This document shows, one piece after another, positions 1,050 through 34,310 of a stretch of DNA of 64,000 nt; the stretch's first letter is position 1; each line of letters starts with the position of its first letter. The position numbers and the translations under genes were made by a program. The stretch spans positions 1 to 64,000 of the forward strand of contig NZ_BJDI01000001.1 in NCBI RefSeq assembly GCF_005405065.1, written 5' to 3'. The notes beneath the pieces are model-generated. The model did no database searches, had not been told where the DNA came from, and saw only the letters and a program-made list of their open reading frames with translations. The DNA comes from Lactiplantibacillus nangangensis. Lineage in GTDB: Bacteria; Bacillota; Bacilli; Lactobacillales; Lactobacillaceae.

Positions 1050-2039
1050 CTAGTCTTGATCATTAAAAAACAGATCAAAAACCTGTTGTCGATCACGATT
1101 CCAAACTTGGTTATCACTGGTTGGATAGACCCGATTGGTTAAAAGAACTAATCCGACTTGCCGATCTAAATCAAAAGCAACCGCCGTCCCGGTATAACCA
1201 GTATGTAGATACTGATGTTTGCCATTGTAACGTTCCCAACCAAGGGTGCGACCTTCAACATCGTATTCGCCTAACCAGTCAAAGACATTTTCATCTAAAA
1301 CGCGTTTGCCTTGATACTCGCCAAAGTTCAACATCATTTCAATAAAAACGGTTAAATCAGTCAAAGTCGAAAATAGACCCGCATGACCACTCTCACCATT
1401 GAGTAAGAACGCCTTATAATCATGGACTTGGCCTTGGATTTGCCCACGACGAGGATCAAACTCGGTTGGCACAAACCGAACCTTAGGCCGATTTAAATTA
1501 TAGCCGGTGTTCGTCATGGCTAGCGGATAAAGAACATGATCTTGAATGCTCCGAGCTAAAGCACCATCGACGGTCCGAATGATCCAGCCAAGAATAATGT
1601 ATCCCAAGTCTGAATAAACAAACTTTTCACCCGGCCGATTGATCAGCTTAGCGTCATAAACCGCCGCAATTAAATCTTCACGATTCATATTGGTCAAATT
1701 ATCAATGTCAGCCGGCAGGCCACTATTATGAAGCAACAATTGTTTAATTGTAATTTCTTTATGGGCAAACCCAGGCAGAAAACGTGCTACGGGATCATCT
1801 AAGCGAATCGTATGATCCGAAAGCAATTGAAAAATCCGAGTCGTGGTCCCAACGACCTTAGTTACCGAAGCCAAATCATAAATCATCGATGGATCTAAAC
1901 CAATTGCAAAGTCATCTTTTCCTTGTTTACCACGATAATACTGGGTCACGCCTTTAGGGGTAATTAGGCTAAACGATGCGCCGTAAATATCACCCGCATC
2001 AAGGCAACTCTCAATGTATGCTGCTATTTTATCAATCAC
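1050..2039 (-). CDS. serine hydrolase, beta-lactamase/class C family
   Basis: 329-residue protein of the beta-lactamase-related serine hydrolase family (esterases, D-amino peptidases, class C-like enzymes). The catalytic S-x-x-K is seen as SVTK at residues 58-61 and the second motif as YSD at 142-144. An HTG motif near residue 280 is in the position of the KTG box. There is no signal peptide, so a cytoplasmic esterase or peptidase is more likely than a true beta-lactamase. Start is GTG at 2039 behind AAGGGTGG. The gene stands alone, convergent with the VanZ-like gene. The substrate cannot be told from sequence. Confidence 0.85.
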   Translation of the reverse strand: MIDKIAAYIESCLDAGDIYGASFSLITPKGVTQYYRGKQGKDDFAIGLDPSMIYDLASVTKVVGTTTRIFQLLSDHTIRLDDPVARFLPGFAHKEITIKQLLLHNSGLPADIDNLTNMNREDLIAAVYDAKLINRPGEKFVYSDLGYIILGWIIRTVDGALARSIQDHVLYPLAMTNTGYNLNRPKVRFVPTEFDPRRGQIQGQVHDYKAFLLNGESGHAGLFSTLTDLTVFIEMMLNFGEYQGKRVLDENVFDWLGEYDVEGRTLGWERYNGKHQYLHTGYTGTAVAFDLDRQVGLVLLTNRVYPTSDNQVWNRDRQQVFDLFFNDQD

Positions 2040-2176
2040 GTGTTATCGGCCACCCTTTCATCATCCGTCAGCACGTTAAATCCGTGCGCCATACAGACTG
2101 TTGTACCCTTTTATCATAACGAAAATCCGGATAAAAGCAACGCCAATAACTTTTTAAAATTTCAGCACTTTAGTAT

Positions 2177-2190
2177 TGCAACCGCTTACA
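2177..2190 (+). promoter_or_regulatory. cre-like site before the large RNA
   Basis: TGCAACCGCTTACA matches the cre consensus TGWAANCGNTNWCA with one mismatch. It lies just before a TATACT -10 element (2202-2207), so CcpA could control the large RNA downstream. The matching -35 is weak (TTGCAA at 2176 gives a 20-nt spacer). Confidence 0.45.
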
Positions 2191-2211
2191 TATTCTGTTA
2201 GTATACTAAGT

Positions 2212-2825
2212 GAGGAAAGGAATTAATCCTCATTAGCAAGCTTCTCAATGAGCATTGGCTGTCGCTGTAATGTTAGGCAGCTAGTAAGACAAGTTAGGGT
2301 CGTTATCGAAACCATTTCGGGCGTTGAAAAGCGTTATCGGTCTAGCGAGTGTCGGGAGATTTTACGTTGGATGGCTGAACGTTAACCCTTGAATAAACGA
2401 TAACCGCAACAGCATCAATTGGTGTTATCTAGACTATCAAGTTTTAATCTTTAGATTAGAGACAGGGTGTCGCCGATGCCAAGTTTAAAGTTCCACTAGT
2501 ACAGTTCCATTGTAAGCTTCAGGTTTCTAAAAGTTTAAACGGAGGTGCATGTCTGTTACGAAGACATTCCTAAGTTTTAAACGCGAGTTCGGCTTTCGTT
2601 AAAACCCGTTTGAAGAGTCAAGAATCAAGTATTTAGGTACTTTTGATCGACTAGAGCAGATAGCTACAATAAATACGGGTTAGTCCGTTAGAAGTTGGAC
2701 ACACGTAAAATTGAATAAGCATGAAGGTGTAACGCATTAAGAACACTGAACAAGTATTTCTTGCTAATATGGATTATTCCTCATAAGTAGAACTCAAGTT
2801 GAGAAGCCTTGGGTTCTATTTTTTT
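2212..2825 (+). ncRNA. large structured non-coding RNA, ROOL-like candidate
   Basis: About 610 nt without a credible reading frame, bracketed by a -10 element and a strong terminator. The two ends pair over a long distance: GGAATTAATCC (2219-2229) with GGATTATTCC (2771-2780), and ATTAGCAAG (2232-2240) perfectly with CTTGCTAAT (2760-2768), closing some 520 nt. Inside are further local hairpins, for example ATGTCT/AGACAT at 2549-2567. It is not tmRNA, RNase P RNA or 6S RNA (none of their conserved blocks is present). Size, closing stem and host group fit the ROOL class (about 580 nt, Lactobacillales); GOLLD-type RNA or an unnamed class are alternatives. The non-coding RNA call is firm, the class is inference. 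Confidence 0.65.
2788..2825 (+). terminator. terminator of the large RNA
   Basis: 11-bp stem (2788-2798 with 2808-2818, one wobble) followed by seven T residues. Confidence 0.9.
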
Positions 2826-2913
2826 GTGCTTTCATCGTCTCGGTCCCCTTTTTCACCAGCAAAATAATCGCAATAACTATTATATAGAAGTAAGTGACTC
2901 GTTTTTACAGACC

Positions 2914-2950
2914 CGCAACCGTTTACATCCCTTTCACTAACCCGTATACT
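2914..2950 (+). promoter_or_regulatory. promoter with overlapping cre-like site
   Basis: TTTACA (2922-2927), 17-nt spacer, TATACT (2945-2950), 30 bp before the aldo/keto reductase. A cre-like CGCAACCGTTTACA (2914-2927, two mismatches) overlaps the -35, suggesting CcpA repression. The sequence echoes the cre-like site before the large RNA at 2177. Confidence 0.65.
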
Positions 2951-2979
2951 TAACTTAAACTCTAAGGGGGATTTTTCAC

Positions 2980-3900
2980 TTGAAAACAATCAATTTAGGC
3001 CAAAGTGGGATGCAAACATCCGCAGTCGCTTTAGGCATTATGCGTATGAATAGTTTAACTGTCGACCAAGCCACCAAAGTACTGGAAACCGCAGTTGATC
3101 TCGGCATCAATTATGTTGATTCCGCCGACATCTACGGTGGTGGCGACTCATCAACCATTTTTGGCAAAGCTTTAAAACAATCATCAGTTAAGCGTGACCA
3201 ACTGTATCTCCAATCCAAAGGCGGTATTGTCCCTGGCAAACGCTATGATTTCTCTAAACAGCACATCATTGAAGCCGTCGACGGTGAACTTAGCCGCTTA
3301 GGCGTTGACTACTTAGATAGTTTTCTACTTCACCGTCCAGATCCATTGATGGAACCAGCCGAAGTTGCTGAGGCTTTCAATGAACTTCAGATTAGTGGCA
3401 AAGTCCGTCATTTTGGGGTCTCTAATTTTAATCCGATGCAAGTCGACTTACTTCAATCAGCGCTAAATCAACGCTTGATGATCAATCAGTTGCAATTTGG
3501 TGTCATGCATACCGGTGCCATCGACTTCGGTTTGCACACCAATATGCAAGATGACCGCAGTATTAACCACGACGGCGAAATCATTGAATACTCGCGTCTG
3601 CACCACATGACCATTCAAGCTTGGTCACCTTATCAATACGGTAACTTCGCCGGAATCTTCCTCGACAATCCGAAGTTTCCTAAGTTGAATGACGCCATGC
3701 AAGCCCTCGCCGATGAAAAGCACACCAGCAAGAGTGCGATTGCGACTGCTTGGATTTTGCGGCATCCCGCTAAGATTCAAGTCATCTTAGGCACCATGAA
3801 CCCCAAGCATTTAACTGAGAATGCTGCTGGTGCTGATATTGATTTGTCCCGGCAAGAATGGTACGACATCTACTTTGCTGCCGGCAACGATTTACCTTAA
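2980..3900 (+). CDS. aldo/keto reductase
   Basis: 306-residue NAD(P)H-dependent oxidoreductase of the aldo/keto reductase superfamily (YdhF/YcsN-like), a TIM barrel reducing aldehydes or ketones in the cytoplasm. The catalytic tetrad can be placed: Asp and Tyr in YVDSADIYGGG near residues 45-53, Lys in LQSKGG and His in FLLHRPDP. The phosphate-binding GTMNPKHL stretch is near the C-terminus. Start is TTG at 2980 with AGGGGG nine bases upstream. It is monocistronic, with its own promoter, a cre-like operator and a terminator. Physiological substrate unknown. Confidence 0.92.
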   Translation: MKTINLGQSGMQTSAVALGIMRMNSLTVDQATKVLETAVDLGINYVDSADIYGGGDSSTIFGKALKQSSVKRDQLYLQSKGGIVPGKRYDFSKQHIIEAVDGELSRLGVDYLDSFLLHRPDPLMEPAEVAEAFNELQISGKVRHFGVSNFNPMQVDLLQSALNQRLMINQLQFGVMHTGAIDFGLHTNMQDDRSINHDGEIIEYSRLHHMTIQAWSPYQYGNFAGIFLDNPKFPKLNDAMQALADEKHTSKSAIATAWILRHPAKIQVILGTMNPKHLTENAAGADIDLSRQEWYDIYFAAGNDLP

Positions 3901-4179: not shown

Positions 4180-4602
4180 ATGTCAAAATTCAACATTACG
4201 CTTATCAACGCTGACCGCGCCAAGGCAATGCTGACGGAATATAAGGAACAACGTAAGAATTCGATTCCGCGGTTAGCCCATCCGGGACGCTATATTTTAC
4301 CGGATTATAAATTAACTCGTCGCCGGGCGGCATTTAAGATCGTCAAACATACCTTCTTAACCCCCCATTACAAATCCTACGTTGCCATGGATTCTGACAA
4401 TGGCCACACCCTCTGGTTTCATAACTTTGGCTCCCTTACCGAAGCTTTGTTCTGGCTAGAAACTGGCTTAAAGATTAGCGACACGGACTCACATTCAAAC
4501 TACAAAGAATGGTCCGTTAAGCACGCCGATAAAATTGTCACCTTTAAAGACGCGCTACGTGATCTCAAAAAACAACAACCTGCTAAAAAGAAAACCAAAT
4601 AA
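4180..4602 (+). CDS. basic cytoplasmic protein, unknown function
   Basis: 140-residue protein not recognised. It is strongly basic, has no membrane segment, and ends in a lysine-rich tail (KKQQPAKKKTK). The ATG at 4180 is chosen over the upstream ATG at 4159 because AAGGGGA (4165-4171) sits eight bases before it. The upstream region is AT-rich. It is a single-gene unit closed by a strong terminator. A nucleic-acid-binding role would fit the charge but nothing more specific is visible. Confidence 0.65.
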   Translation: MSKFNITLINADRAKAMLTEYKEQRKNSIPRLAHPGRYILPDYKLTRRRAAFKIVKHTFLTPHYKSYVAMDSDNGHTLWFHNFGSLTEALFWLETGLKISDTDSHSNYKEWSVKHADKIVTFKDALRDLKKQQPAKKKTK

Positions 4603-13302: not shown

Positions 13303-13357
13303 AAGAAAAAGAGCCGACTGCAATCCACGGCAAAAAGCGCGCGAATGACATCGGCTC
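13303..13357 (-). terminator. riboswitch-controlled terminator before ade
   Basis: GAGCCGA (13351-13357) pairs with TCGGCTC (13311-13317), followed by T5 on the minus strand. This is the expression platform of the purine riboswitch. Confidence 0.8.
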
Positions 13358-13361
13358 AATT

Positions 13362-13428
13362 CGCTTATAGTCCAACATTTACGGTGCTGGGTAGAAACTC
13401 GCCATCCTTATCATGGCATTATATAGGC
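13362..13428 (-). promoter_or_regulatory. purine riboswitch, guanine/hypoxanthine class
   Basis: Minus strand carries the conserved aptamer blocks in order: TATATAAT, GTTTCTACC, CCGTAAA and GGACTATA. The two hairpins with pairing loops (P2, P3) lie between them. The ligand-contact base in J3/1 is C (GACTATA), as in guanine-sensing xpt aptamers; adenine sensors have T (GATTAT). It controls ade through the downstream terminator. Confidence 0.92.
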
Positions 13429-13706
13429 AATTAATTTAGTTAATGGTTTTTGTTTGTCAGTAACCTTAGCAGAATTCAGGCGCAATTGCAAACACGAACA
13501 TTGATTTGACCGAATAACCAAGCCCAATCTCAGTAAAACCGTAACCAATTGAGATGACGACTACCGTTTAGCCGCATCCAAACAGGTTAGTATCCGGATT
13601 TCACAACCGTTTGTCGTTGCTTTCACTCGGTAGACCGGCTATGATGTTGATAATTAATCGCATTTAAATTTAATTAACTAATTAATTTTATAAGGAGCCA
13701 TCGCTC

Positions 13707-34111: not shown

Positions 34112-34310
34112 TGCTATGCAAAATATGGAGAAATGTAGAAAAACATTACTGATTTCTACATTCAGAAAGGTTGCATATTTCCTTTTTTTATTTTACTTGC
34201 TACCGTTATCACGCCGGTTTTCCGATATTCCACTAAGGAGTAATCACATTGACCAACTATGACAGCATGAGGACTTAGCCAGCCCCGTTTAGTTGTGATT
34301 TTTTTTGCTT
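34112..34310 (-). ncRNA. omegaRNA candidate at the tnpB 3' end
   Basis: In IS200/IS605 elements the guide RNA of TnpB is made from the 3' end of tnpB and the right end, and its guide is the flanking DNA. This 200-nt region after tnpB has no gene and ends in the rloB junction, so the guide would begin with GAATCAGAACTGC. It is inferred from the family, not from a seen promoter. Confidence 0.4.

Follow-up and report, generated by a model that had tools for sequence, protein, structure and literature searches.

Does the interval between a divergently oriented gene for a beta-lactamase-fold hydrolase (minus strand, 1050-2039; PF00144) and a gene for an aldo/keto reductase (plus strand, 2980-3900; PF00248) of Lactiplantibacillus nangangensis encode a giant RNA, and does such an RNA belong to a known class? 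The window analyzed was a stretch of 64,000 nt (GCF_005405065.1, NZ_BJDI01000001.1, positions 1-64,000, forward strand). A conserved start (GTGAGGAAAGG, from 2210 on the plus strand) was followed by ~560 nt without a long ORF, and the locus is, as judged from sequence comparison, a free-standing gene whose product would be a large non-coding RNA with extensive structure (Table 1). A preceding sequence-only reading, which had proposed a non-coding RNA of ~610 nt, was right in extent (~2210-2825) and in the lack of a long ORF. Homologues were found in all 20 genus mates.

Table 1. Predicted features of the RNA locus (positions in the window)
Feature	Position	Strand	Evidence
Predicted RNA gene, ~615 nt	2210-2825	+	Homologues in 20/20 genus mates and 10/40 genera
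cre-like (CcpA) operator TTGCAACCGCTTACA, in the -35 region	2176-2190	+	Exact consensus match; kept in genus alignment
Extended -10 TGT-TAGTAT	2196-2204	+	Genus alignment; similar in other genera
Closing stem P1a, 5' strand GTGAGGAA, pairs with 2777-2784	2210-2217	+	Swapping test
Closing stem P1b, 5' strand (2224-2229 with 2771-2776, 2232-2240 with 2760-2768)	2224-2240	+	Swapping test
Conserved CTTCTCAA, complementary to terminator loop 2799-2806	2241-2248	+	Sequence comparison, swapping test
5' arm closed by TCGTTATCG/CGATAACCG, part of a module tandemly duplicated in G018 (same genus)	2300-2406	+	Covarying pairs
Hairpin GGA[GGTGC]ATGTCT...AGACAT[]TCC with conserved GGAGG	2541-2570	+	Drawn by eye
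Conserved AAATTGAATA...ATGAAGGTGTAA stretch	2708-2732	+	Alignments
Closing stem, 3' strands	2760-2784	+	Swapping test
Intrinsic terminator, hairpin and T run, loop TTGAGAAGC carrying the partner of 2241-2248	2788-2825	+	Sequence, genus consensus

The cre-like site TTGCAACCGCTTACA was the sole exact match to the cre consensus TTGYAANCGNTTNCA within the 64-kb window, and overlaps the extended -10 promoter predicted for the RNA gene. Across the genus alignment, TG and the initial TA of the -10 region never varied, and most of the following bases were nearly invariant; transcription would start at ~2210-2212. The cre-like site, a -10 element (here read as an extended -10) and a terminator (a hairpin with a T run ending at ~2825) had all been noticed in the sequence-only reading, and each was upheld. 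A simple consensus scanner called neither promoter nor terminator at the RNA locus, the terminator probably being missed because its loop of 9 exceeded the scanner limit of 8. Just upstream of the aldo/keto reductase gene, at 2915-2950 of the window, another cre-like sequence (GCAACCGTTTACA) was accompanied by a promoter-like match.

The RNA sequence was single-copy in its own genome. When 100 genomes were searched by blastn, 23 matched: the own genome, all 20 genus mates (one match in 17, and split matches at a single site in the remaining three) and two genomes of other genera, in which only the promoter and start were matched. The pattern GTGAGGAAAG-N(10-40)-CTTCTCAA was found in 30 of 397 Lactobacillaceae genomes (5 of 40 genera), and a stricter pattern including half of the cre site recovered 24 loci among GTDB representatives: 11 named Lactiplantibacillus (including L. 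plantarum EGD-AQ4), one 'uncultured Lactobacillus' MAG, 5 Pediococcus, 5 Furfurilactobacillus, Paucilactobacillus wasatchensis and Secundilactobacillus malefermentans. P. pentosaceus was among the species carrying relatives of the RNA. The stricter pattern is no evidence for cre because it required the half-site, a requirement that the GTGAGGAAAG-N(10-40)-CTTCTCAA pattern did not contain.

A profile built from 19 sequences of the 3' part (221 positions), which with 8 base pairs is mainly a sequence profile, matched 63 places in 58 of the 397 family genomes at E 0.01, distributed over 10 of the 40 genera (g1, g3, g5, g11, g15, g21, g22, g25, g26 and g34), one match being false: L150 (genome G034), the weakest (E 0.0035), resembled coding DNA and was dropped. 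Among these 63 places, 31 were fetched, 26 scanned and 24 read. The strict cre consensus was present in 19 of the 26 scanned loci, all found via the 3' end; the seven misses were the false match L150, then L143 and L147 (last base changed), L138, L139 and L151 (g26; decayed) and L137 (unassigned). Promoter, cre and terminator were retained along with the RNA across relatives. Five genomes (G115, G133, G229, G248 and G295) gave a second, weaker profile match. A second divergent RNA copy with its own cre was observed in L132, L133, L134 and L135 (Pediococcus, ~500 nt) and in L131 (Secundilactobacillus), and the closing stem and terminator-loop complementarity of these copies were examined in L131, L132 and L133. 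In an order-wide sample of 198 genomes, 5 matched, all of them Lactobacillaceae and one being the false G034 place, and no match was found outside this family. Furthermore, blastn with the window's own sequence found nothing in 50,697 phage or 72,556 plasmid records, and the stricter pattern nothing in viral contigs, searches that diverged relatives may escape. As far as sequence searches can tell, the RNA is confined to Lactobacillaceae within the genomes searched.

Folding of the RNA gave a z score of -2.71, and none of 20 shuffled sequences was as stable. Of the long closing stem in the sequence-only reading, the inner pairing proved real, ATTAGCAAG (2232-2240) with CTTGCTAAT (2760-2768), 519 nt apart, while the outer one (GGAATTAATCC/GGATTATTCC) was better redrawn as GTGAGGAA (2210-2217) with TTCCTCAT (2777-2784), plus TAATCC (2224-2229) with GGATTA (2771-2776). 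The genus alignment (A1) comprised 18 of 21 genomes, without L006 and L025, which are close to rows that were retained, and without G018, with its assembly gap and tandem copies. In the consensus of these 18 sequences, 17 of 133 pairs had both partners changed; 14 of these pairs are in the 5' arms, and the closing stem, a 3' hairpin and the terminator contain one each. Covariation, which the sequence-only reading had proposed as a check on the closing stem, was found within the genus, with only one of the 17 pairs in that stem. Since P1a was invariant in the 18 sequences, the genus alignment alone is no proof of it. Across genera, on the other hand, the sequence of P1a turns over while its pairing is kept: GUGUGGAAAG-type starts accompany CUUUCCAC-type ends in g34, and the closing pairs elsewhere were UGUAGAAAGAUAGCUUGG/CCAAGCUAUUUUCUACA (G220 of g26), GGGAACAA/UUGUUCCC (g22) and GUAAAGAGG/CCUCUUUAC (g15). 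In a swapping test, the duplex energy between the first 34 nt and the 42 nt preceding the terminator was compared between native pairs and pairs swapped between representatives, using 24 of 25 hand-chosen representatives (L137, from genome G126 of g34, was left out since no start was found). The means for these 24, from ten genera, were -26.4 (native) and -15.9 kcal/mol (swapped), and none of 20000 permutations, in which kinship was ignored, was as good. Within these limits, the conserved structure of the putative large non-coding RNA has covariation support.

In addition to the closing stem, the terminator loop was complementary to CUUCUC near the 5' end in most lineages. Over 35 sequences (31 distinct; some species twice), the run of pairs between loop and 5' element ranged from 6 to 11. 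The flanks are mainly informative here because the core (CUUCUC/GAGAAG) was nearly invariant and its 5' half sat in the search patterns. In 21 distinct rows, the pair adjoining the core was G-C in 14, C-G in 2, A-U in 1 and unpaired in 4; the two helices jointly formed 87.7% of their pairs, versus 45-52% when slid; and the covariation score was equalled in 4 of 500 shuffles, with two of five covariation measures not above shuffling (double-change pairs, 290/500; pair types, 106/500). The 5' element and loop were CUCCUCGGU and ACUGAGGAG in g34, and CUUCUCGCAA and UUGCGAGAAG in g11. When loops and 5' segments were swapped among the 24 representatives, native combinations (-10.1 kcal/mol) were more stable than swapped ones (-7.8 kcal/mol; 0/20000, kinship ignored), and the native pair was mid-ranked in many representatives because the core is shared. 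Loop pairing was weak in g15, and either weak or missing in Pediococcus G159 and the three representatives of g26. In the RNAalifold genus consensus, the same 5' segment paired with the AAUUGAAUAGC stretch instead, with no double changes there. The predicted loop/5' pairing could form inside one molecule or between molecules, and would serve either.

The predicted arms of the 5' domain are tandemly duplicated in some species. Tandem 5' modules were detected in three loci: L129 (69 nt x 5.7) and L137 (111 nt x 4), both of g34, and L026 (174 nt x 4), which belongs to the window's genus and contains an assembly gap. The repeat finder reported no tandem module in L053 or in the window's copy. One stem of L129 varied by copy (GACUGUU/AGCAGUC, GACUGCU/AGCAGUC and GACCACC/GGCGGUC, the last with one A-C mismatch), and the corresponding stem of L137 was GACCACU/AGUGGUC.

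The sequence-only reading had likened the RNA to ROOL on size and host, had named a new class as the alternative, and had pointed to the Rfam models of ROOL and GOLLD as a check; neither model matched at the RNA. With Rfam 15, nothing was found over the RNA at gathering thresholds, and a search of 2000-3000 of the window to E 10 returned only two unrelated chance matches. Elsewhere in the window, Rfam matched a purine riboswitch (13348-13446, minus strand) and a Transposase-1 RNA (34209-34265, minus strand). In 19 loci with relatives, Rfam gave nothing over the RNA, and outside it only tRNA and two sub-threshold miRNA matches. The ROOL model (RF03087) found nothing in the own genome or the 20 genus mates and scored 228.3 bits for a ROOL RNA in another family of the order, as a positive control. 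The GOLLD model (RF02032) found nothing in the own genome, its controls being also without a match.

The RNA shares with ROOL its large structured nature, similar length and occurrence in lactic acid bacteria; a 520-nt RNA of L. salivarius, which is encoded on a megaplasmid (PMC5643018, in the part available), has been assigned to ROOL (PMC12286853, likewise). In contrast to ROOL, it has a cre promoter and neighbours kept within genera. ROOL and GOLLD are described in the accessible part of PMC12286853 as phage- or prophage-encoded RNAs that form octamers and 14-mers, the cages being held partly by kissing loops. ROOL identity was rejected on the lack of a model match, of phage, plasmid or viral matches at the sensitivities used, and of tRNA in the window. 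ROOL RNAs are encoded by phages, prophages or, in L. salivarius, a megaplasmid, and are often near tRNA islands, whereas the flanks of the RNA here are common within genera and, among the loci scanned, only the g15 relative was close to tRNA genes. GOLLD is likewise large and ornate, its 3' part being better conserved than its 5' part, but many members exceed 800 nt and GOLLD RNAs are prophage- or phage-encoded (PMC12286853, accessible part); it was set aside because of the lack of a model match (with silent controls) and of a phage or viral match at the sensitivity used. The L. plantarum supermotifs (LPSM, Wels 2009) are long structured intergenic transcripts of the same genus, but, by the second-hand description that sets them apart (PMC5643018, in part), are 800-1000 nt long, multi-copy and limited to L. 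plantarum, whereas the RNA here is single-copy in its own genome, without the many copies per genome of LPSM, and has relatives in 10 genera.

6S RNA (RF00013) has a long closed stem, which the closing stem here resembles. No 6S model match was found at the RNA, which is about three times longer, and a substitute for 6S was rejected because the own genome has a 6S match elsewhere (G000 contig 3, 47.4 bits). A further likeness lies in the promoter: cre lies over the 6S promoter in about one third of lactic acid bacterial species, an overlap read as repression by CcpA (PMC8414754, in the part available). The accessible text of Weinberg 2010 (PMC2864571) makes no mention of L. plantarum or Pediococcus, and no earlier description was found in the literature covered, subscription papers, preprints and supplements (e.g., the candidate list of PMC8040213) lying outside its scope, so that an earlier prediction is possible. 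In our reading, the RNA represents a class of its own among large structured RNAs, and the alternative named in the sequence-only reading, a new class, fits.

In 17 + 16 loci, flanking genes were mostly common within a genus, and no gene was common to all genera. Two clusters and a 139-aa protein recurred across genera: the protein in Lactiplantibacillus and Pediococcus, one cluster in g22 and beside a Secundilactobacillus second copy (an ATPase-like protein), and the other in g34 and L. fabifermentans. Neighbours that are mostly genus-specific, with none in all genera, favor a trans-acting RNA over a cis element. Among the examined loci of Lactiplantibacillus and Pediococcus, 10 encoded the 139-aa protein (4183-4602 of the window, plus strand; no Pfam or NCBIfam match) close to the RNA, in either orientation. 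The protein was found in 107 of 397 Lactobacillaceae genomes (genera g1, g5, g14, g16, g21, g27 and g33), while G022 and G044 contained the RNA without the protein; it was rejected as an obligate partner because its distribution differs from that of the RNA, and its proximity was read as shared gene order. No tRNA was found within the 64-kb window. The g15 relative was located ~0.6 kb downstream of a five-tRNA cluster (L171 9-463); no other scanned locus had this arrangement.

From the promoter, CcpA probably represses the RNA gene while a good sugar lasts. The explanation that we favor, tentatively and at rather less than even chances, is that of a CcpA-repressed, end-locked RNA acting in trans as a scaffold or sponge that tunes the cell to carbon limitation. 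The ends of the RNA would be locked by the two-part closing stem, together with the loop/5' pairing in most lineages. CcpA bound to the -35 region would, from the anatomy of the promoter, repress the gene in the presence of a preferred sugar, and the RNA would accumulate on poorer sugars or in stationary phase. Less certainly than any of this, it may act as a stable scaffold or sponge for a protein or another partner, in a single copy or in several, and the holding of this partner may adjust the cell to a shortage of carbon. The proposal of a trans-acting scaffold or sponge was based on protected ends, neighbours that differ between genera and arms that can multiply; it leans on tandem modules, which the window's copy lacks and the finder left unreported in L053. 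The three g26 loci with a decayed cre count against an explanation based on CcpA.

A related account, possible and still doubtful, makes the RNA a machine induced by sugar depletion, in which the terminator loop would seal the 5' end and each tandem arm would bind the same partner, the number of arms setting the dose, or in which molecules would join to each other via the loop. It is unlikely that the RNA resembles ROOL and GOLLD, without being either, in forming a closed self-assembled particle, in which each copy would use its 5' CUUCUC to kiss the terminator loop of its neighbour. Its size, closing stem and several arms are in line with such a particle, as are the conserved loop-to-strand complementarity, which is as serviceable between molecules as within one, the kissing loops of the ROOL and GOLLD cages (PMC12286853, accessible part) and the g15 relative near five tRNA genes, a setting reported for ROOL and GOLLD. 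However, neither model matched, phage, plasmid and viral searches were negative, tRNA was absent from the window and from the vicinity of the RNA at the other scanned loci, the pairing is equally explained inside one molecule, and a variable number of arms fits a fixed symmetric shell poorly. A base-pairing regulatory RNA, whose conserved single-stranded stretches would pair with mRNAs of carbon metabolism, appears quite unlikely: the CcpA-type promoter and sequence blocks more conserved than the predicted pairing requires speak for it, but the RNA exceeds in size and structure the usual base-pairing sRNAs, which are smaller and less structured.

Two other readings concern the conserved GGAGG, which is the complement of the anti-Shine-Dalgarno end of 16S rRNA. 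That it captures 30S subunits in starved cells is improbable; GGAGG occurred in at least one member of each of ten genera, with UG next in six, but in the hairpin drawn by eye its GGA is able to pair with a UCC further downstream (in the genus consensus, the stretch 2541-2570 is paired differently), and GGAGG was altered or missing in L137, L143 and L147. The longest internal frame of the window's copy (45 codons; 2248-2385) was not kept in half of the genus rows. Behind GGAGG, a frame of 17 codons (2549-2602) ended at a common column in 18 of 18 genus rows, and started with ATG or GTG at the same place in 17 of them, L024 having GTG one codon earlier; it was the only frame of at least 12 codons ending at one column in at least half of the 18 rows. 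A micro-peptide mRNA, with the RNA as its long leader and trailer, could account for this fixed end and start position, and on reading, a short frame was present at that place in some other genera as well. Against it, the gap from GGAGG to the start is only 3 nt, no such start was seen by eye in Pediococcus, Paucilactobacillus or Secundilactobacillus, replacements within the genus appeared mostly non-synonymous (by eye), and the identical bases build the hairpin, of which we regard the frame as a probable by-product; a micro-peptide is very improbable. Hardly credible at all is a cis-acting leader, or an intergenic repeat without its own function. The RNA does lie upstream of the aldo/keto reductase gene, which was nearby in five Lactiplantibacillus loci examined, but it has its own terminator, different neighbours in other genera, a single copy in the genome and a structure kept across genera.

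Very large bacterial RNAs with a conserved structure are few, and OLE, ROOL and GOLLD are, in the accessible part of PMC12286853, still poorly understood. The RNA here, for which we tentatively prefer the role of a CcpA-repressed scaffold or sponge acting in trans, is encoded by food bacteria, including L. plantarum and P. pentosaceus, with one copy in the window's genome and a promoter that predicts when it would be expressed. Because of these three properties, the function of a giant RNA may become approachable by ordinary deletions and sugar shifts.
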